Positions 9,728 to 19,947 of a stretch of DNA of 21,963 nucleotides are shown one piece after another. The notes under the pieces were generated by a model, which saw only the letters and a list, made by a program, of their open reading frames with translations, made no database searches and had not been told where the DNA came from. A program made the position numbers and the translations under genes. The stretch covers positions 1 through 21,963 of the forward strand of contig JAFRCB010000326.1 of NCBI GenBank assembly GCA_017404585.1, given 5' to 3'. This DNA is from Lachnospiraceae bacterium. GTDB lineage: Bacteria > Bacillota > Clostridia > Lachnospirales > Lachnospiraceae. Positions within the stretch are counted from its first letter, which is position 1; the number at the start of each line of letters is the position of its first letter.

Positions 9728-9787
9728 AGGGCTGAAAATCCGGTATTCTCCCCGGTAATTTGGTTAATTACATAGCAGGAGGATTAC

Positions 9788-9856
9788 ATGATGACACCGC
9801 ATCGTCCATGGGCACCGGGTTTTCGACTACCATTATCGAAAGGATTGTATTTATGA
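9788..9856 (+). CDS. Candidate 22-residue leader peptide
   Basis: A perfect AGGAGG (9777-9782) five bases before an ATG opens a short frame (MMTPHRPWAPGFRLPLSKGL, then YL) whose TGA overlaps the ATG of the next gene (ATGA at 9853-9856). This is the strongest ribosome binding site in the neighbourhood and it serves the short frame rather than the main gene, whose own site GAAAGGA (9838-9844) lies inside the short frame. Translational coupling or an attenuation-type leader would explain this. Whether the peptide itself has a function cannot be told. The alternative is an N-terminally extended main gene from TTG 9760, which I disfavour because that start has no visible binding site. Confidence 0.5.
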   Translation: MMTPHRPWAPGFRLPLSKGLYL

Positions 9857-10698
9857 ACATCAGAGAATTGCTTGAAAAAGATAAAGAGCGGCTCATGACG
9901 CGTCTTGCAAATGCCGACTCTCCCGAACAGGCCGCCCGCGAATGCGAGGATGAACTTGGCCGCCTTCTTCTCGAGTACAACGAACAATCCCCAAGTGACC
10001 GGGTAAGCGAAGCGGCTTACTACTCGATGCAGACAGCCAGGGCAGCCATCTCTCTGGTCGACAGCACAGGCGAGATCCGTGCCTATGAGCGCACCGTCGG
10101 TACAGAGGTGAACGGGAAAAATTACATTATACCTCTGGCTGGAGGCATAGGTGCCATGGCGGCCGGAGGACTTGTGCTTGCACTTGCGCCGGCGGTATTG
10201 GCACCGGTCGGCCTTATCGGTCTCATCGCAGGTTTTGTCGGAACCTTTGTCGCCGGAGTGAGGTTCGGCGGGAAACGCCCCATGCCAAAGACGCGGGATC
10301 AGATTTTCGAGACCCGGGTGGACGGGAGCAAGATATATTCGAACCTGCTTCGCATGATGACGGTCATTGATCGGAACCTTCAGGATATTCACGGAAGGGA
10401 GCAGATGGAAACTCCTGTGATAGAGATGAAATCCGAAAAGGCCGAGTCGGAGGAACTCGAGCTCCTGTCAGGCATTCTGGAGTCAGCCTATGCAAAGCGC
10501 GATGAGGGTGACTCCGAGGATACCATTTCCAATATTAAGTTCTATCTGCACAGGCGGGGACTTGACGTCGTCGATTACTCGGCAGAGACAGAGCGCTGGT
10601 TCAATAAGATGCCCTCGAAGAGGCGCGGGACGATCCGGCCGGCATTGGTGAAGGACGGAGCGGTCCTCGTAAGAGGGATAGCACAGGGAGGAATGTGA
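9853..10698 (+). CDS. Membrane-hairpin protein, partner of the Hsp70-like ATPase
   Basis: A 281-residue protein I cannot name. The N-terminal 1-75 is charged and helical (ELLEKDKERLMTRLANADSP), suggesting a coiled coil. Residues 92-136 form a Gly/Ala-rich hydrophobic pair of helices (PLAGGIGAMAAGGLVLALAP and GLIGLIAGFVGTFVAGVRFG), probably a re-entrant hairpin with both ends cytoplasmic. The C-terminus ends in a small domain with GTIRPALVKDGAVLVRG (259-275), faintly recalling the beta-wing end of GrpE, the DnaK nucleotide-exchange factor; this is a weak, testable resemblance. ATG 9853 is chosen because GAAAGGA precedes it by eight bases and it overlaps the upstream short frame. The Hsp70-like gene follows after one base, so the two surely form one transcript and probably one complex. 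Confidence 0.65.
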   Translation: MNIRELLEKDKERLMTRLANADSPEQAARECEDELGRLLLEYNEQSPSDRVSEAAYYSMQTARAAISLVDSTGEIRAYERTVGTEVNGKNYIIPLAGGIGAMAAGGLVLALAPAVLAPVGLIGLIAGFVGTFVAGVRFGGKRPMPKTRDQIFETRVDGSKIYSNLLRMMTVIDRNLQDIHGREQMETPVIEMKSEKAESEELELLSGILESAYAKRDEGDSEDTISNIKFYLHRRGLDVVDYSAETERWFNKMPSKRRGTIRPALVKDGAVLVRGIAQGGM

Positions 10699-10699
10699 G

Positions 10700-12610
10700 A
10701 TGGAGAGATTTTTCGGATTTGACCTTGGCGACGCCGAGAGTGCTGTTACCAGGCTAAAAAATGATTCGTCCGCTGTCCCCGAGGTGCTTTCTGTCAGGGA
10801 CGCCAAAAGCTTTATTACTGCCTACGCCCGGCTGGTCAACCAGGACATTCTGATCGGTGAGAGCGCCTGCTATTCGGCGGAGGCGATTGAACGAAAGATA
10901 CGCTTCAAGAGCCGCTTTCTTGTTGACCGGGACTGCGAGCGGGATATAAAAAGCTTCGCGGCAGGTGTCCTGGGAGAGCTGATAAGAAACGGAGATTACA
11001 TTCAGGGCGAGGACTGCAGCATGTATATCGGCTGCCCCGCCGGCTGGGACGCGCAGACAAGAGAGCGCTACCGCTATATTTTTGAACAGATCGGTTACCC
11101 GCCGGTGAAAATCATTTCCGAATCGAGGGCAGCCCTTGTTTCCGCCTGTCAGTCAAAGCACCTGCAGGTCGGCTATGATATCCTTAGTCATCCGGTCCTG
11201 GTCGTGGATATCGGATCCTCGACGACGGACTTCGCCTACATTTCCGGCGGAAAGGAAGCTCCGCTGCATACAGCGGGTGAGGTTTTCCTGGGCGGCGGAA
11301 TCATGGATGAGCTGCTCCTCGACTGCTCGTTAGAGACGTCGAAGGACGGAAAGCGGCTCAGGGAAGTGTTTGCGGAGAGTCCGTCGTGGCGGAGCTACTG
11401 TGAATTTGCAGCGCGACGACTTAAGGAAAAATACTTCTCGGATGAGGGCTACTGGAAGGACAATCCGTGTGTGAAGACAGTCCAGGTCTATTATGACAAG
11501 CCGCTGAAACTGGTCCTCAAAATGGATGCGTCCGTGGCTGACCGCATCCTGCACAAAAAGACGGACAGGCTCGGCGGGAAGTCCTTTAAGGAGGTCTTTA
11601 TTGAGAGCCTGCAGGAGACGAGGAGACATATAAACGGTGATATGCCGGACCTCATTTTCATGACGGGCGGCGTTTCCAAGCTCGCGGAGATCAGGGACTG
11701 GTGTCGGGAGGTCTACCCGGAAGCGGTCATCATTACGGAAATTCAGCCGGAATTTTCTGTGGCCAAGGGGCTTGCGCTGAGCGGCAGGATAGACGAGGAA
11801 CTGAGACTTTTCCGCAAGGAGCTGCAGGATCTGATCGATTCTTCGGTGATCGAGCGTATTGTGTCTGAGAATGTGGACGGTCTCTACATGAGGGCGGTCG
11901 ATTCCATGACCGGCCCGATCCTCAAGAAGGTCATGCTGCCGGTGATTCACCGCTGGAGGGACGGAAAAATCAAGCGGCTGAGCGACATCGACGGTGAGCT
12001 GCAGAAGGACATCGAGGCATTCCTGCACACGGACGAGGCAAAGCAGCTGCTTGTAGAACCTGTCCAGCAGTGGCTGCGGCCTGTCGCCTATGAGGTCGAG
12101 GAGCACACTGTGCCGATCTGCGTGAACCACAATGTGCCCTATAAAGCTCTGAGCCTCTCGTCATATCTCGCCCTGTCGGATATTGATATACATCTTGACA
12201 CCAAGAACGTGTTCAATGTGGAGGAGATGACTCTGCTCATAGACACGATCGTTGCCCTCATTATCGGGCTTCTGTGCGGCGGCAGCGGCGTGGCCCTCAT
12301 TGCCGAAGGTTTTGTCGGCATTATCGCGGGCTTCGTCATCACGGCGCTTGTGCTCATCCTCGGAAAGAACCGGATGCAGAAAGCGATCATGGATCTTGAC
12401 ATTCCGCGCCCGATCCGTAAGCTTGTCCCGAAAAGCTACTTTGAGGATCATCTGGACCAGCTGAAGGACGAGATCCGGGCAAGTTTCTATGAGAGTTTTG
12501 AGAAGGAGAAAAATGAGGAGATCTCCGAGCGCCTTGTGAGGGAGATATCTGACCAGATTGAAGAGTGTCTGACCAATATGGCAAGAGTGGTGGAAATTCC
12601 GCTTGGATAA
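10700..12610 (+). CDS. Membrane-anchored Hsp70/actin-fold ATPase
   Basis: A 636-residue protein. The first 370 residues have the actin/Hsp70 nucleotide-binding fold: phosphate-1 FGFDLGDAES (5-14), phosphate-2 LVVDIGSSTTDF (167-178), a GEVFLGGGIMDELL segment (193-206) like the Hsp70 GG-D region, and adenosine motif LIFMTGGVSK (318-327). No classical beta-sandwich substrate-binding domain follows. Instead there is a helical region (365-470), a segment 471-510, a hydrophobic hairpin (511-555) and an amphipathic, coiled-coil-like C-terminus (575-625). The phosphate-1 loop is atypical: DLGDAES replaces the usual DxGTTxS. AGGGAGG lies just upstream of the ATG, one base after the previous stop. Likely a membrane-bound ATP-driven switch or chaperone acting with the upstream hairpin protein (inference). 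Confidence 0.8.
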   Translation: MERFFGFDLGDAESAVTRLKNDSSAVPEVLSVRDAKSFITAYARLVNQDILIGESACYSAEAIERKIRFKSRFLVDRDCERDIKSFAAGVLGELIRNGDYIQGEDCSMYIGCPAGWDAQTRERYRYIFEQIGYPPVKIISESRAALVSACQSKHLQVGYDILSHPVLVVDIGSSTTDFAYISGGKEAPLHTAGEVFLGGGIMDELLLDCSLETSKDGKRLREVFAESPSWRSYCEFAARRLKEKYFSDEGYWKDNPCVKTVQVYYDKPLKLVLKMDASVADRILHKKTDRLGGKSFKEVFIESLQETRRHINGDMPDLIFMTGGVSKLAEIRDWCREVYPEAVIITEIQPEFSVAKGLALSGRIDEELRLFRKELQDLIDSSVIERIVSENVDGLYMRAVDSMTGPILKKVMLPVIHRWRDGKIKRLSDIDGELQKDIEAFLHTDEAKQLLVEPVQQWLRPVAYEVEEHTVPICVNHNVPYKALSLSSYLALSDIDIHLDTKNVFNVEEMTLLIDTIVALIIGLLCGGSGVALIAEGFVGIIAGFVITALVLILGKNRMQKAIMDLDIPRPIRKLVPKSYFEDHLDQLKDEIRASFYESFEKEKNEEISERLVREISDQIEECLTNMARVVEIPLG

Positions 12611-14579: not shown

Positions 14580-14591
14580 TTTTAGAACTCA

Positions 14592-14618
14592 CGGGGCTGT
14601 ACGGGCAGCCTCGTTTTT
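14592..14618 (+). terminator. Rho-independent terminator after the pseudo-histidine-kinase
   Basis: CGGGGCTG (14592-14599), loop TACGGG, CAGCCTCG (14606-14613) with one G-U pair, then TTTTT (14614-14618). It separates the kinase from the glycosidase gene 25 bp later. Confidence 0.82.
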
Positions 14619-14643: not shown

Positions 14644-16503
14644 TTGACCAAAATAGTGATGAACAAAAAGAAGCTGGCAGGTATTGCTATAGCCGCGGCC
14701 GCAGTGATCTTTCTTTTTTTTGGATTCCTCGTACCGGTAGGCATTACAGCAGAACCGACGGCAACTCTTTATGAGTACGAGGCGCTGACCGAGGATGATT
14801 TTAAGGTGGAGACAAGGACGCTTTTCGGTGTGCGGAAAGAGGCTGCTGAGTTCTCCATGACAACCGAGGTGCCGGTCGGCCGGGAGAGCAGCGCAGAATC
14901 GAACGCGGCGGAACCGAATGCCGCAGTAGACTCGGGTACAGCAGCGGCGATAGATTCTGATGCGTCGGGAGCAGGCCCGGATGCGTCGGAACCGAAAGAC
15001 GAAGCAGTTCCGGCAACCGTCACGGAATACACATTCATCAGCGATAAATGGACCGCGAGCATCAGCGTACCGTTCGTGAAGGCTGAGAAAATAATCACCG
15101 GATATGACGGAAAACTGTATCAGAGTGACGTGGTCGACCCAAAGCGGGTCACTACATCTCTCGTGTATGAGGACGGGAGAGAAAAAGAGGTCCCGGAGGA
15201 AATGCCTAAGCTCCCGGAGGAAGGGATATTCGACAAAGTAACCCTGCCGGTCACGACAGCGTACGGAGACTCTGTCCTCGCTGTCGATCCGGTGAAGGCT
15301 GTGGGGGCAAGTCTTATTCAGGACGGCCTCTTCTACGAGACCACGCTGCCGTCGGCGGAGAACCTTACCTGCGTGATCCGGTACGGGGACGGCCATGAAA
15401 AGGAGACAAAGATCTTCACAGTCAGAGATCCGAAGCCCCTCAGGGAAGACGGGAAAGTGACCGTGGATACATTTGCGGGAGAAGCCTCCTGCGAAATCAA
15501 AATAGAACCCGTCATGGGCGCAATCGCGGACACAGACCCCGGCCTTCTCTTTCAGGAAGATATGCTTAACGTGACGGGCATCCGCCTGCAATATAAGGAC
15601 GGGCACGAGGAGCATGCGGAGATGGATGAGGTCCGCCTTGAGCCCGAAGCCTACCTGCCGCTTGTCTACGGGGATACGGAGATATCGTTCGATTATCGCG
15701 GAGGGACCTATGCGTTCACGGTAAATGCCAGCAGGGACACGGAGATCCATCGGGCCATGAAGGACTATGCGGATGAGATTGCGAGCGCTAAATATCTGCA
15801 TCTCACTGATACGATCATGGTGACTATCAATGAGTATGAGACGTATGAATACTATTATCTGCTGACCCATATCATCATCGATGACCCGTCACAGATCCAC
15901 GCAGGTCTTTCAAATGACGACTACGGCGGAGCGAGGGAGACTCCGACCAGCGCTGCGGAGAGACTGGGCTGGGTCGTGGGAATAAACGGCAGCAATTTCA
16001 GCTACGTCACGAACACGCCGACGATGGCGGATATTTCGATCAAGAACAGCCAGGTCATGCCGGACAGCAAAATGACGGCCAACGGTATGGAGATATGCCT
16101 TACGAACAGCGGGAACCTGTTCTCACCTCAGCAGGGGATGACCGTTCAGGATCTTCTCGCGATGGGAGTCACAGATACATGGTGCTGCGGCGATACCCTG
16201 CTCATCTCCAACGGTCAGGCGGTGAACGTGGGTATTCAGAGCGAGCAGTACAGGTACCCGAGAACCGCTATAGGAATGGTCAGACCGTGCGAATATTATA
16301 TTATCACCGCCGGCAATGGAGGTTATAATAAAGGCATGACTTACGATGAGATCCGCGATACGCTGATGTCCCGGGACTGCGGTTTCGGCAAATGCCTCGA
16401 CGGAGGAGGCAGCAGCTCGCTTGTATTCGAAAAGCAGCTTCTGAATATACCGGCAACGGGTTCCGAGAGACCTGTTACTGACTTTTTATATTTTACTGAA
16501 TGA
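14644..16503 (+). CDS. Membrane-anchored/secreted phosphodiester glycosidase (NAGPA/DUF2233 family)
   Basis: A 619-residue extracytoplasmic protein. One N-terminal hydrophobic segment (residues 8-30) acts as signal anchor. Residues 35-370 are beta-rich, with an Ala/Ser/Glu/Pro-rich insert at 80-120, and may contain Ig-like folds. The C-terminal 230 residues match the phosphodiester glycosidase family that includes mammalian NAGPA (uncovering enzyme) and bacterial exopolysaccharide-related proteins: VVGINGSNFSY, a Y-PRTAIGMV strand and the signature CLDGGGSSSLVFE near the end. Such enzymes cleave sugar-phosphate diesters, so a teichoic-acid or capsule-type substrate is plausible here (inference). 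TTG 14644 is chosen with GGGGGA (14627-14632) upstream; ATG 14659 is the alternative and would lose five residues. Its stop overlaps the start of the pseudokinase gene (ATGA), implying translational coupling. Confidence 0.85.
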   Translation: MTKIVMNKKKLAGIAIAAAAVIFLFFGFLVPVGITAEPTATLYEYEALTEDDFKVETRTLFGVRKEAAEFSMTTEVPVGRESSAESNAAEPNAAVDSGTAAAIDSDASGAGPDASEPKDEAVPATVTEYTFISDKWTASISVPFVKAEKIITGYDGKLYQSDVVDPKRVTTSLVYEDGREKEVPEEMPKLPEEGIFDKVTLPVTTAYGDSVLAVDPVKAVGASLIQDGLFYETTLPSAENLTCVIRYGDGHEKETKIFTVRDPKPLREDGKVTVDTFAGEASCEIKIEPVMGAIADTDPGLLFQEDMLNVTGIRLQYKDGHEEHAEMDEVRLEPEAYLPLVYGDTEISFDYRGGTYAFTVNASRDTEIHRAMKDYADEIASAKYLHLTDTIMVTINEYETYEYYYLLTHIIIDDPSQIHAGLSNDDYGGARETPTSAAERLGWVVGINGSNFSYVTNTPTMADISIKNSQVMPDSKMTANGMEICLTNSGNLFSPQQGMTVQDLLAMGVTDTWCCGDTLLISNGQAVNVGIQSEQYRYPRTAIGMVRPCEYYIITAGNGGYNKGMTYDEIRDTLMSRDCGFGKCLDGGGSSSLVFEKQLLNIPATGSERPVTDFLYFTE

Positions 16504-18530
16504 GGGAAAAAATGCTGGCACAGGGAATACGCCTGGCAGACCGTTACGCGGTCCGCGACAGAATTTCATACGGGGGCGAAACGGTGAGCCGCGCGTACGA
16601 TATGAAGACCGAGCGGTTCGTTCTCGTGCGGACTGTCACTAATGTCAGAGACAGCGAGCTGCTCCTCCGTGTCAGAGCCCTATCCACTGTGGAAGGAAGT
16701 CACATTCAGGCGGTCCTTGATGCTGCTGTGTATGACGGTACCCTCTATGCGGTCTGCGATGACGTAAAAGGCGCGTCCATGAGGAGCGCATTTCTCATGC
16801 ATGGCCACTATGAGGAGAAGGAAGTTCTCCGGTGGGCCCGGGGAATCGCGAAAGCGCTGTCCACCCTGCACGGGCGGAGGTATCCGATTGCTCATGGCCG
16901 GGTGGATATGGCCCATATCCTGATCGACCCGGTAAAGAGCAGCGCGAGGCTGGTAAACTACGATATTCAGGAAGCTGTCAGACTGCAGGATGAATCAAAA
17001 GCGGAGGAGGCTTCATGGCAAAAGAATAAGAGGTTCTATCAGAGGCGAAGGGAGACCTTTGTGTCGGAGGCGAACGCGGAGGCATTTGCACGTGATATCC
17101 GCGCGTTCGGCGAGGTCATGTACGAGCTCCTCACCGGAAAGAAGCCCGCCTCGCCCCATGAACCGCTCAGGGAGTGTCTGCCGGAGATGTCGGAGCCATT
17201 TGCAAATGTCATAGAAAACTGTCTTGCGGATGACGCCCGGGGATACAGAAGCGGACTTGAACTTTCGGATGCTCTGCGCCATCTTTACCGTGAGGATTCC
17301 CAGTACAAGAGATACAGGCGCGAATCCCACAAGCGAATGATGGCGGGTCTTGCCTGCATTGCGGCAGGCGCGGTCTTTGTCGGAGCAGGATTCTTTGTGC
17401 GCAGCTACGGGAAATATGCAAGATACACCAAACTGGTGGAGAGTGTCAGGGCCGCTGAGGATTCCGATACTCCCGAAAAAAATATGGTTTTCATTGAGGA
17501 AGCGAAAGCGCTCCTGCCGGGAAAGCTTTATGCCTATGTCCTCGAGATGGAGAATCTCTACGAGCGAGGCGAGTACCGGGCTGTGGTCGACTGCGGAAAA
17601 GCCGTGAAGAGGAACCGGCAGATCGAGGCGAGCGCGGAGAACGCAGCCCTTCGCAGCGAGATGTTTTTTACCTGGGGCAACGCCGAGTTCGAGCTGGGTG
17701 ATTACAAGGAGGCGGACAAAGCTTTCTCGGACGCTGTCTACTATATGCCCGAAGACGCTGAAAACCTGTATGTGAGGACACTCAGGGACGAGGCGGTAAG
17801 TCTCATCAGGGACGGCAGACCCGAGGAGGCGGATCCCCTTACGGCTGAACTCACAAAACATCAGGCAGGAAAGTCTGTCATCCCATACGTGAGCGCGGAG
17901 ACGGCCTACATGCAGGGAGAGTATGAGAAGGCTATGACTCTGTACATGGAGGCAGCCGAAGTGGGAGAACCGGATATGACGCGAAGGTCTGTCCTCATGA
18001 TCTCGAAGCTCTACGGAATCTCCGGGGAGACGGAGAAGCGGATCAATTTCCTGACGGAGCAGGTGAGATCCGCGGACGGCCGGTTCTACCTCACGCTGGT
18101 CTCGGAGCTCGCGGATGTCTGGACCGAGAGGGCGGATGCCGAGAAAAATGTGACCAAAAAAGCGTCCTATATGAGAACTGCCTACAAGCAGTATATGACT
18201 TTGAAGGATGAGGGCAGCGCGTCAGCCCATACGCTGGATCGGCTGGCATACATATCCGAGACACTCGGCGATTACAATGCAGCCGCTGATTTTGTATCGG
18301 AGCTGACGAGAAATTATCCCGAGGATTACCGCGGCTTTAAGAGAAAGGCTTTCCTTGAGGCTGCCATCGAGGAGGAGCGGCAGGAGAGTGAGCGCACCTA
18401 CGATGAGTTCCGGGATGCTTACAATCGCGCCAATGCCCTCTTCTCCTCCAGCGGCAACCTGGCGGATGATGAGATGCTGAAGCTCCGGGAGCTTCACGAG
18501 AAACTGAGAAAGGGCGGCTGGTTCGGATAA
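16500..18530 (+). CDS. Membrane pseudokinase with extracytoplasmic TPR repeats
   Basis: A 676-residue protein with a Ser/Thr-kinase fold (about 12-265), one membrane helix (279-301) and a TPR-like helical repeat region (305-676). All catalytic motifs are degenerate. The glycine loop reads ISYGGETVSRAY (22-33), the VAIK lysine is Arg (FVLVRTV, R44), the HRDxxxxN catalytic loop reads HGRVDMAHIL (132-141), and DFG reads NYD (VNYDI, 152-156). Structural landmarks remain, such as DIRAFGEVMYELLTGKKP (199-216), which matches helix F of bacterial STPKs. Phosphotransfer is therefore unlikely; a scaffold or binding role as in MviN-type pseudokinases is the best comparison. The TPR part should lie outside the membrane, unusual for a protein-interaction repeat. 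Translation is coupled to the glycosidase by ATGA; ATG 16512, five bases after GAGGG, is an alternative start. Confidence 0.85.
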   Translation: MREKMLAQGIRLADRYAVRDRISYGGETVSRAYDMKTERFVLVRTVTNVRDSELLLRVRALSTVEGSHIQAVLDAAVYDGTLYAVCDDVKGASMRSAFLMHGHYEEKEVLRWARGIAKALSTLHGRRYPIAHGRVDMAHILIDPVKSSARLVNYDIQEAVRLQDESKAEEASWQKNKRFYQRRRETFVSEANAEAFARDIRAFGEVMYELLTGKKPASPHEPLRECLPEMSEPFANVIENCLADDARGYRSGLELSDALRHLYREDSQYKRYRRESHKRMMAGLACIAAGAVFVGAGFFVRSYGKYARYTKLVESVRAAEDSDTPEKNMVFIEEAKALLPGKLYAYVLEMENLYERGEYRAVVDCGKAVKRNRQIEASAENAALRSEMFFTWGNAEFELGDYKEADKAFSDAVYYMPEDAENLYVRTLRDEAVSLIRDGRPEEADPLTAELTKHQAGKSVIPYVSAETAYMQGEYEKAMTLYMEAAEVGEPDMTRRSVLMISKLYGISGETEKRINFLTEQVRSADGRFYLTLVSELADVWTERADAEKNVTKKASYMRTAYKQYMTLKDEGSASAHTLDRLAYISETLGDYNAAADFVSELTRNYPEDYRGFKRKAFLEAAIEEERQESERTYDEFRDAYNRANALFSSSGNLADDEMLKLRELHEKLRKGGWFG

Positions 18531-18574
18531 ATCAGCCTGAAGAAAAACTGAGAAAAGGCAGATGGTTCGGATAA
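18501..18574 (+). repeat. Duplicated gene tail
   Basis: The last 30 bp of the pseudokinase gene including its stop (18501-18530, encoding KLRKGGWFG-stop) are repeated 44 bp later (18545-18574, KLRKGRWFG-stop) with 27 of 30 bases identical. The second copy is in another frame relative to the gene. The preceding codons also correspond loosely (ELHE versus QPEE). Confidence 0.85.
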
Positions 18575-18589
18575 AAGGAGGAGATAGTT

Positions 18590-18727
18590 ATGATTGTCGG
18601 TGGAATTGTCCTGATCGTCGTCGGCATCGGACTTGCCGTCGGCGGAGCTGTGATCCTTGTCGCGGAAGCCTTTCTCATGCAGAAGCGTGAGAAGCAGATC
18701 ATTGATAAAATGAACGAGAAATACTGA
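18590..18727 (+). CDS. 45-residue single-pass membrane peptide
   Basis: A short gene with a perfect AGGAGG (18576-18581) eight bases before its ATG. The peptide starts MIVGGIVLIVVGIGLAVGGA, has one Gly/Val/Ile-rich membrane helix (residues 2-25) with GxxxG-like spacing (G4/G5, G12, G14, G18/G19), and ends in a charged, Lys-rich tail (31-45). The tail is presumably cytoplasmic by the positive-inside rule. It sits between the pseudokinase and CoaBC genes, 15 bp after the duplicated tail, and could be a small partner of the pseudokinase or an independent stress peptide. I recognise no family. The binding site, codon use like the neighbours and clean helix make it a credible gene. Confidence 0.72.
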   Translation: MIVGGIVLIVVGIGLAVGGAVILVAEAFLMQKREKQIIDKMNEKY

Positions 18728-18744: not shown

Positions 18745-19947
18745 ATGATGCCTGACGGAAAAAAGAACGTACTTCTGGCTGTGTCCGGTTCGATCGCGGC
18801 ATATAAAGCGTGTGATATTGCGAGAGCATTCGTGAAGGAGGGCGTGAGTGTCACGGTCACCCTGACACCCAACGGGGCAAAGTTCGTCACGCCGGTCACA
18901 TTTGAAACGCTGACAAACAGCAAATGCCTGATCGATACATTCGACCGGAATTTCAAGTTCGAGGTGGAGCACATCGCGGCGGCAAAGGCGGCGGACGTGT
19001 GCCTCATCGCTCCGGCTTCCGCCGACATAATCGGCAAGATTGCGAACGGCATCGCGGACGATATGGCAACCACCACGATCATGGCGGCGACCTGCCCTAA
19101 GCTGATCGCTCCTGCTATGAATACTGCCATGTATGACAACCCGATCGTTCAGGAGAACCTGGCTAAGCTTATCCGCTATGGCTATAAAATCATCACGCCT
19201 GACACCGGCCTTCTGGCATGCGGTGATGTGGGCAGGGGAAAGCTTGCGTCCGTTGAGACGATCGTGGATGCTGCAAATGAAGTACTGTTCGAGAGGGAAC
19301 GTCCAAAGGATCTTGCCGGCAAGAAGGTCCTTGTGACAGCCGGACCTACCCAGGAAGCGATCGATCCTGTCCGCTATATTACAAATCATTCGAGCGGAAA
19401 GATGGGGTACGCGCTGGCGGAAGCCGCCCGGGACCGCGGGGCGGAGGTGGTTCTCGTATCCGGTCAGGTAGCCCTTGCGTCGCCGAAGGGCGTGACCGTC
19501 AGGAAGATCGTCTCGGCTGCGGATATGGCGGAGGCTGTATTTGCAGAATTTCCGGATACGGATGTACTCATTATGGCGGCGGCGGTCGCTGACTACAGAC
19601 CGAAGGAAGTTGCCGACCAGAAAATCAAGAAGTCCGGCGGAGGAATGACGATCGAGCTTGAGCGCACGACCGACATCCTGGGCACTCTGGCCGACAAAAA
19701 GACGCATCAGTTCGTGTGCGGATTCTCGATGGAGACGGAGAATCTGATCGAGAATTCCAGAAAGAAGCTCGAAAAGAAGAAGCTTGATATGATAGCGGCC
19801 AACAGCATCCGTGACGAGGGGGCGGGATTTGCCCACGACACGAACAAGGTGACTGTCATAACGCAGGAGGACCTGTGTGACCTGCCGCTCACGTCAAAGG
19901 CGGAGACAGCGCATCTCATCCTTGATGAGATCGTAAGGAGACTATGA
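18745..19947 (+). CDS. coaBC: Bifunctional phosphopantothenoylcysteine decarboxylase / phosphopantothenate-cysteine ligase
   Basis: A 400-residue enzyme carrying out two consecutive steps of coenzyme A synthesis: joining cysteine to 4'-phosphopantothenate (CoaB, nucleotide-dependent) and decarboxylating the product (CoaC, FMN-dependent). The CoaC half (1-185) shows GSIAAYK (15-21), catalytic H76 in VEHIAAA, APAMN (122-126) and active-site C159 in LLACGDVGRG. The CoaB half begins near 190 with VTAGPTQEAIDPVRYITNHS followed by SGKMG, and continues with AAAVADYRP and a KIKK segment. Length is standard. GAGGAAATTACT precedes the start; the second ATG at 18748 is equally possible. It lies 17 bp after the membrane peptide. 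No other CoA gene is nearby. Confidence 0.96.
   Translation: MMPDGKKNVLLAVSGSIAAYKACDIARAFVKEGVSVTVTLTPNGAKFVTPVTFETLTNSKCLIDTFDRNFKFEVEHIAAAKAADVCLIAPASADIIGKIANGIADDMATTTIMAATCPKLIAPAMNTAMYDNPIVQENLAKLIRYGYKIITPDTGLLACGDVGRGKLASVETIVDAANEVLFERERPKDLAGKKVLVTAGPTQEAIDPVRYITNHSSGKMGYALAEAARDRGAEVVLVSGQVALASPKGVTVRKIVSAADMAEAVFAEFPDTDVLIMAAAVADYRPKEVADQKIKKSGGGMTIELERTTDILGTLADKKTHQFVCGFSMETENLIENSRKKLEKKKLDMIAANSIRDEGAGFAHDTNKVTVITQEDLCDLPLTSKAETAHLILDEIVRRL

Follow-up and report, generated by a model that had tools for sequence, protein, structure and literature searches.

A membrane pseudokinase encoded between NAGPA and CoaBC genes in a Lachnospiraceae bacterium is probably a relocated relative of type VII secretion-locus kinases

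The window analyzed here is a whole 21,963-nucleotide stretch of DNA from a Lachnospiraceae bacterium, contig JAFRCB010000326.1 of assembly GCA_017404585.1 (contig C203 of genome G000, which is about 65% complete). On its forward strand, an open reading frame (ORF) of 676 amino acids (aa; 16500..18530) encodes a protein with a kinase fold but without kinase chemistry, followed by one membrane helix and a superhelix of tetratricopeptide repeats (TPRs). With moderate confidence, we regard this pseudokinase as a dead, relocated paralogue of the kinase-membrane helix-TPR proteins encoded in type VII secretion system (T7SS) loci that have no EssB, and as a non-catalytic membrane scaffold comparable with EssB itself. 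None of the open-licence papers seen describes the protein.

T7SSb has a dead kinase (EssB), and several recently described T7SS subtypes have an apparently active one. Because the kinase described here lost catalysis while its TPR part and a small partner were kept by selection, it makes it possible to test directly which of the two, catalysis or scaffolding, is the fundamental task of a T7SS kinase.

Domain organization and loss of kinase motifs

The protein can be divided into a kinase-like domain that is predicted to be cytoplasmic (residues 1-265; 16500..17294), a single membrane helix (residues 280-300; 17337..17399) lying within a predicted continuous helix of residues 267-318, and a C-terminal TPR superhelix that is predicted to lie outside (residues 301-676; 17400..18527). 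The true start may be at 16512, giving 672 aa, since this is the length found in 12 of the 17 close database clusters and GAGGG precedes the second ATG. The kinase-like and TPR parts were predicted together in one model. Nearly all of the proteins among the 50 Foldseek and 50 VIA matches listed are kinases, TPR proteins, or other helical repeat proteins; EssB is absent among them, although this absence is no test of EssB kinship. The end of the protein (LRKGGWFG-stop) is repeated imperfectly in the intergenic DNA (18504-18574), and the two orthologous loci, L032 (JAFWIM010000054.1, genome G017) and L034 (G025), contain a comparable duplicate.

An earlier, sequence-only reading of this stretch had described a recognizable kinase fold from which all motifs had been lost, joined to a single membrane helix, and these points were borne out. 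The fold is supported by the predicted structure and by matches to solved kinase structures, and the helix by hydrophobicity and the structure model. Five catalytic residues (the beta3 Lys, the HRD Asp, the Lys and Asn of the catalytic loop, and the DFG Asp) are all missing from 12 of 12 orthologue rows and all kept in 83 of 83 sampled relatives, which were picked by eye from the best 120 of 1820 matches, with fragments, long variants, and near-copies left out. The orthologue rows comprise nine of the 17 close proteins, P0001, and two loci; they do not amount to 12 independent cases, because L032 is nearly identical to P0006.

Arg44 replaces the beta3 (VAIK) Lys (16629..16631), the position being R in every orthologue row and K in every sampled relative. 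In the alignment, HGRVDMAHIL stands in place of a catalytic loop of the HSDIKPANIM type (16893..16922) and NYD in place of DFN/DFG (16956..16964). Where the activation segment is expected to begin, the model predicts a helix (residues 156-176; 16965..17027), and the alignments show that the PPEQ region is missing. The alpha-C Glu, two conserved positions of the G-loop, and the activation segment have gone as well. Erosion is uneven along the protein: residues 481-676 keep 20 of their 23 positions with 90% or higher conservation among the 83 relatives, whereas the activation region keeps one of 12.

The reading frame is intact in three species. Among the 17 close database clusters, 12 (including that of the window) likewise have an intact frame; the other five are shorter than 672 aa and are perhaps fragments. 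Ratios of nonsynonymous to synonymous substitution (dN/dS; Nei-Gojobori, three species pairs) are 0.12-0.14 both for residues 1-265 and for residues 301-676, which indicates purifying selection on the kinase-like and TPR parts alike.

Kinship with kinases of T7SS loci

The pseudokinase occurs in three of 42 genomes of the genus (G000, G017, and G025). Its nearest relatives in the genus, found in G025, G035, G033, G004, and G026, share 27-31% BLAST identity and match both the kinase and the TPR parts, so that the homology spans kinase, membrane helix, and TPRs. No more than about 2 kb separates each of these five kinase genes from an EssC-like gene, and in each case an ORF of WXG100 type (97-125 aa; confirmed with Pfam in L035 and L036) lies between the two. 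The EssC-like protein of L035 carries FtsK and FHA domains, and a YukD match was also confirmed there.

In a tree of 28 rows, the six pseudokinase rows form one clade (100/100) inside a group of 14 (98/99), the rest of which consists of T7SS-locus kinases of the genus and close database relatives.

EssB (PF10140) had no match in G025, G026, G033, or G035, and G004 gave a sub-threshold match of 18.7 bits on another contig; across 61 genomes, four had matches at E 0.001, and only the one in G020 was above the cut-off. The five T7SS-like loci of the congeners (L035, L036, L038, L040, and L041) are composed of EssC-like, WXG100-type, and kinase-TPR genes without an EssB above the cut-off, and L035 additionally holds LytTR, YukD, and PP2C genes.

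The kinase-TPR family is large, with 1820 of 7993 scored candidates matching one T7SS-locus member. A search for additional dead copies in the family covered 397 genomes taken from a larger number; six matched at E 1e-45, namely the window's own and five others. The latter read HSD or HGD, KPANIM or KPSNIM, and DFN and therefore look active. Two long kinases near T7SS loci, L037:14203-16845 (880 aa) and L040:1527-4403 (958 aa), read GRGSYG and HRDIKPANIF and apparently belong to another kinase group.

A small membrane protein encoded downstream

Between the pseudokinase stop and coaBC, we found an unlisted gene on the same strand (18590..18727) that is preceded by AGGAGG and encodes a 45-aa protein that has a single hydrophobic helix and ends in a charged tail. 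The protein is identical in the window, L032, and L034; the nucleotide sequences differ at four, five, and seven sites per pair, all of them third codon positions.

All five T7SS loci of the congeners encode a protein of similar plan (44-47 aa), whose gene begins no more than about a dozen bases before the kinase gene ends. A small membrane gene lies directly 3' of the kinase in five of five T7SS-locus cases and of the pseudokinase in three of three. A hidden Markov model (HMM) of the five T7SS-locus proteins was run against 13,393 six-frame segments, a count that includes some stretches twice because loci overlap. The proteins of L034 (E 2.5e-4), L032 (3.7e-4), and the window (3.7e-4) were the only further matches above the inclusion threshold, and the 45-aa protein is likely a homologue of the small gene that follows T7SS-locus kinases. 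It had no match in NCBIfam, and a database search with it returned eight unnamed proteins. This short, easily missed membrane gene thereby joins the likely partners of the kinases in T7SS loci.

The NAGPA-CoaBC junction

Upstream, on the same strand, lies a gene for a NAGPA-domain (phosphodiester glycosidase) protein (14644..16503; PF09992, E 1.1e-20) with an N-terminal hydrophobic helix at residues 14-32. Depending on which start codon is used, this gene ends on the start of the pseudokinase gene or 8 nucleotides before it. The right-hand neighbor of the pseudokinase and the small gene is CoaBC (18745..19947, also forward), identified by its Flavoprotein and DFP domains in Pfam.

The same junction exists without the pair. 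NAGPA homologues with 56-57% identity occur in G001, G020, and G022, and in all three CoaBC follows directly; the stretches retrieved from these genomes gave no match to the pseudokinase or to the 45-aa protein. In G000, G017 (L032), and G025 (L034), the pair sits between NAGPA and CoaBC. The simplest reading is that a two-gene unit was probably gained in the lineage of the G000, G017, and G025 species. Given that the small gene is shared with T7SS loci and that NAGPA-CoaBC sites exist without the pair, the kinase and its partner were probably copied together into the NAGPA-CoaBC unit.

What is new here is the series itself: a T7SS-locus kinase with intact motifs, a NAGPA-CoaBC site without the pair, and an inserted dead copy with its small partner. 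Should the scaffolding role prove wrong, this evolutionary series of active kinase, pair-less site, and dead copy would still be documented within one genus. The sequence-only reading had not recognized that the protein is related to T7SS-locus kinases, that a gene for a 45-aa partner follows it, or that both are inserted between NAGPA and CoaBC.

Membrane topology

Of 29 kinases in the wider group, 26 have more Lys and Arg on the N-terminal side of the membrane helix than on the other side, and the remaining three have equal numbers. Relatives with intact motifs need ATP, so their kinase domain should be inside and their TPRs outside. Across the whole family, it is therefore likely that the TPRs lie across the membrane from the kinase fold.

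The earlier description had placed TPRs beyond the membrane helix, on the wall side, and had called this a reversed sensor design. The TPR superhelix is confirmed by Pfam, the model, and structure matches, and its position outside is likely by analogy with the family. The term "reversed" should be dropped, as a kinase domain inside, a single helix, and a protein-binding domain outside form the standard arrangement of PASTA kinases and of EssB/YukC. In the crystal structure of YukC/EssB, the pseudokinase (3-206) is followed by a membrane helix (220-243) and an extracellular helical domain (244-384), according to the available part of PMC9600267.

Comparison with known systems

The closest described counterparts are the TsxD kinases of T7SSc, d, e, and j, above all TsjD, whose C-terminus is predicted to form TPRs (available part of Garrett, Higginson and Palmer 2024, PMC11217815). 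These share with the window protein a Hanks kinase fold, a membrane helix, and a C-terminal helical domain, which in the window protein is predicted to lie in the envelope. The likeness to TsjD is one of description; the sequence comparison was made with T7SS-locus kinases of the genus, and the term "Lachnospir" is absent from the main text of PMC11217815. The available part of that survey, which covers T7SS subtypes with membrane kinases, gives TscD an EssB-like topology and a conserved active site, whereas none of the 12 orthologue rows of the window protein keeps any catalytic residue. TsxD is also encoded with the TsxC ATPase and the WXG100 protein TsxA, whereas the window protein lies outside a T7SS locus, beside NAGPA. 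No TsxC or WXG100 protein was found among the 13 window ORFs scanned with Pfam, and an EssC search of G000 was negative at E 1e-20 in this 65% complete genome. TseK and TsdH of the same survey, with a single helix and a short cytoplasmic stretch, resemble the 45-aa protein by description only.

EssB/YukC (PF10140) resembles the window protein in having a single helix, a degenerate G-loop and motifs, and a reduced activation loop, as well as an outer helical domain (predicted for the window protein), but in EssB this domain comprises about 140 residues compared with about 375 residues of TPRs here. Membership of the EssB family was rejected: PF10140 gave no match up to E 1, and hhalign of the family profile against the EssB of one congener gave 3.8% probability. 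No T7SSb cluster was seen in the window ORFs scanned, and PF10140 was unmatched in the incomplete G000 genome. As for what such a protein might do, the available part of PMC9600267 reports that the YukC pseudokinase does not bind ATP in vitro, that it is an interaction hub of T7SSb, and that its inner domain co-purifies with the FHA region of the YukB ATPase.

The PASTA kinases PrkC, PknB, and StkP share the kinase fold and the orientation and are among the best matches to solved structures. They differ in that PASTA domains were unmatched in the window protein (Pfam) and in that its catalytic residues are lost; the PASTA kinase of the window genome is encoded at L033. Motif loss, deletion of the activation segment, and a C-terminal membrane helix have also been described for MviN-type, ActPs1-3, GLW, CP1, DYD, and DLHK pseudokinases, and the available part of that review does not mention a TPR domain (PMC12599244). 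A match to the defence kinase MADS6 in NCBIfam (E 8e-10) scored 37.8 bits against a cut-off of 460 bits; we read it as a general kinase match and rejected this assignment.

Proposed role and alternatives

In the sequence of events that we propose, the kinase and its small membrane partner would have been copied as a two-gene unit into the NAGPA-coaBC junction. The copied kinase would then have lost its ATP and catalytic residues and the activation segment, while its fold, membrane helix, TPR superhelix, and small partner were retained. The inner, pseudokinase face would dock a cytoplasmic protein and the outer TPR face an envelope protein, for which the co-encoded NAGPA enzyme is the first candidate, and the 45-aa protein would be a membrane subunit of the scaffold. 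The resemblance to EssB is most likely one of function, by analogy and with no sequence match. More tentatively, and with rather more doubt than belief, one may see here an independent re-invention of an EssB-like membrane pseudokinase, in which an active T7SS kinase and its partner were copied out from their locus, the kinase lost its activity, and both became coupled to an envelope glycosidase. If so, T7SS kinases would have a scaffold function separable from catalysis, and the case would hint at how EssB arose.

Several observations weigh against a relocated scaffold. At 2.23 changes per column, the stem branch of the pseudokinase clade is long; the node uniting the clade with its closest sister has weak support (80/82), and P0001 was flagged by the tree program for an unusual letter composition. 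The support values therefore overstate how surely the sister and the direction of the move are known. For the 45-aa protein of the window, the HMM match is modest (E 3.7e-4 for the whole, 0.002 for the best domain). The pair may have been lost elsewhere instead of gained; in the 10.7 kb retrieved for G023, whose NAGPA homologue shares 43% identity, CoaBC was not matched, and the NAGPA-CoaBC comparison excludes G020:C48 (53%, partial) and G012 (33%). Since congeners have NAGPA genes without a pseudokinase, the tie to NAGPA may amount to no more than co-transcription. Within the window protein alone, the Lys/Arg bias around the helix is slight (6 vs 4) and the net charge is equal; its topology, with the kinase-like domain inside and the TPRs outside, is predicted only. 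Its partners and function are likewise putative.

The kinase-TPR family also extends beyond T7SS. Some of its members sit with FHA-type genes (L115-L117). In the 8.4 to 20 kb retrieved per locus, with Pfam covering just L115 and L116, no EssC was matched; the presence of FHA and FHA-ABC transporter genes with no EssC matched makes the family wider than T7SS, which counts against the proposal too. Beside these relatives, which have HSD or HGD and DFN motifs (L115:2984-8012, L116:5863-10681, and L117:5722-10588), are encoded an FHA protein (Pfam in L115 and L116) and an ABC transporter carrying a pair of FHA domains, which Pfam identified in L116 and BLAST similarity indicated in the other two. 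Such neighborhoods suggest phospho-threonine signaling outside T7SS.

The main rival, which we nevertheless consider unlikely, is that the protein serves a T7SS in trans, as an extra EssB-like subunit or as a dead partner that would pair with the active T7SS kinase of the same cell and modulate it. Its TPR and C-terminal residues match those of T7SS-locus kinases and the small partner gene is retained; moreover, the other two pseudokinase genomes, G025 and G017, both carry an EssC-like gene, and G025 also has a full-length paralogue with intact motifs. The gene itself, however, lies outside any T7SS locus, the co-occurrence amounts to two genomes, and incomplete G000 has no EssC match at the threshold given above.

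A single-pass sensor of the usual orientation, in which outer TPRs would read the state of the wall or the NAGPA product and the inner pseudokinase would signal by binding, is possible but unsupported, and we rate it as improbable. The predicted helix of residues 267-318 could cross the membrane without a break and the unit contains a likely envelope enzyme, but the FHA domains that accompany active relatives were unmatched in the window ORFs scanned.

It is very improbable that the protein is a remnant enzyme with another mode of nucleotide binding or another transfer activity, as in SelO and SidJ. Purifying selection on the pseudokinase domain would fit, and other activities exist in some pseudokinases, according to the available part of PMC12599244; against this stands the combined loss of all five catalytic residues, the alpha-C Glu, the two G-loop positions, and the activation segment, no search for an alternative active site having been made. 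A decaying copy without function is scarcely credible: motif loss, the long stem branch, and the five short clusters might be taken for decay, but the frame is intact in the three species and most close clusters, the small gene is unchanged at the protein level, and the dN/dS of both halves disfavors a pseudogene.

Neighboring genes

Between the gene for a hybrid histidine kinase and NAGPA there is a terminator-like hairpin with a T tail (14591..14614, forward strand); the evidence for it is weak, as 10 such sites were found and 7.3 were expected in shuffled sequences. Synteny in both orthologous loci extends to the genes for the hybrid histidine kinase, an LDT, and a 312-aa protein, but because the terminator-like site precedes NAGPA, we do not claim them as parts of the unit. 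The 312-aa protein (9760-10698) contains a hydrophobic segment rich in Gly, and no Pfam family matched it above the cut-off. It precedes a membrane-anchored Hsp70/actin-like ATPase of 636 aa (10700-12610), with hydrophobic segments near residues 504-555 and MreB and HSP70 matches below the cut-off. A functional tie of the pseudokinase to this gene is unsupported, as 27 of the 42 genomes in the genus have a match to the ATPase, compared with three that have the pseudokinase. With a dN/dS of 0.012-0.026, the ATPase has the lowest value of the seven genes compared.

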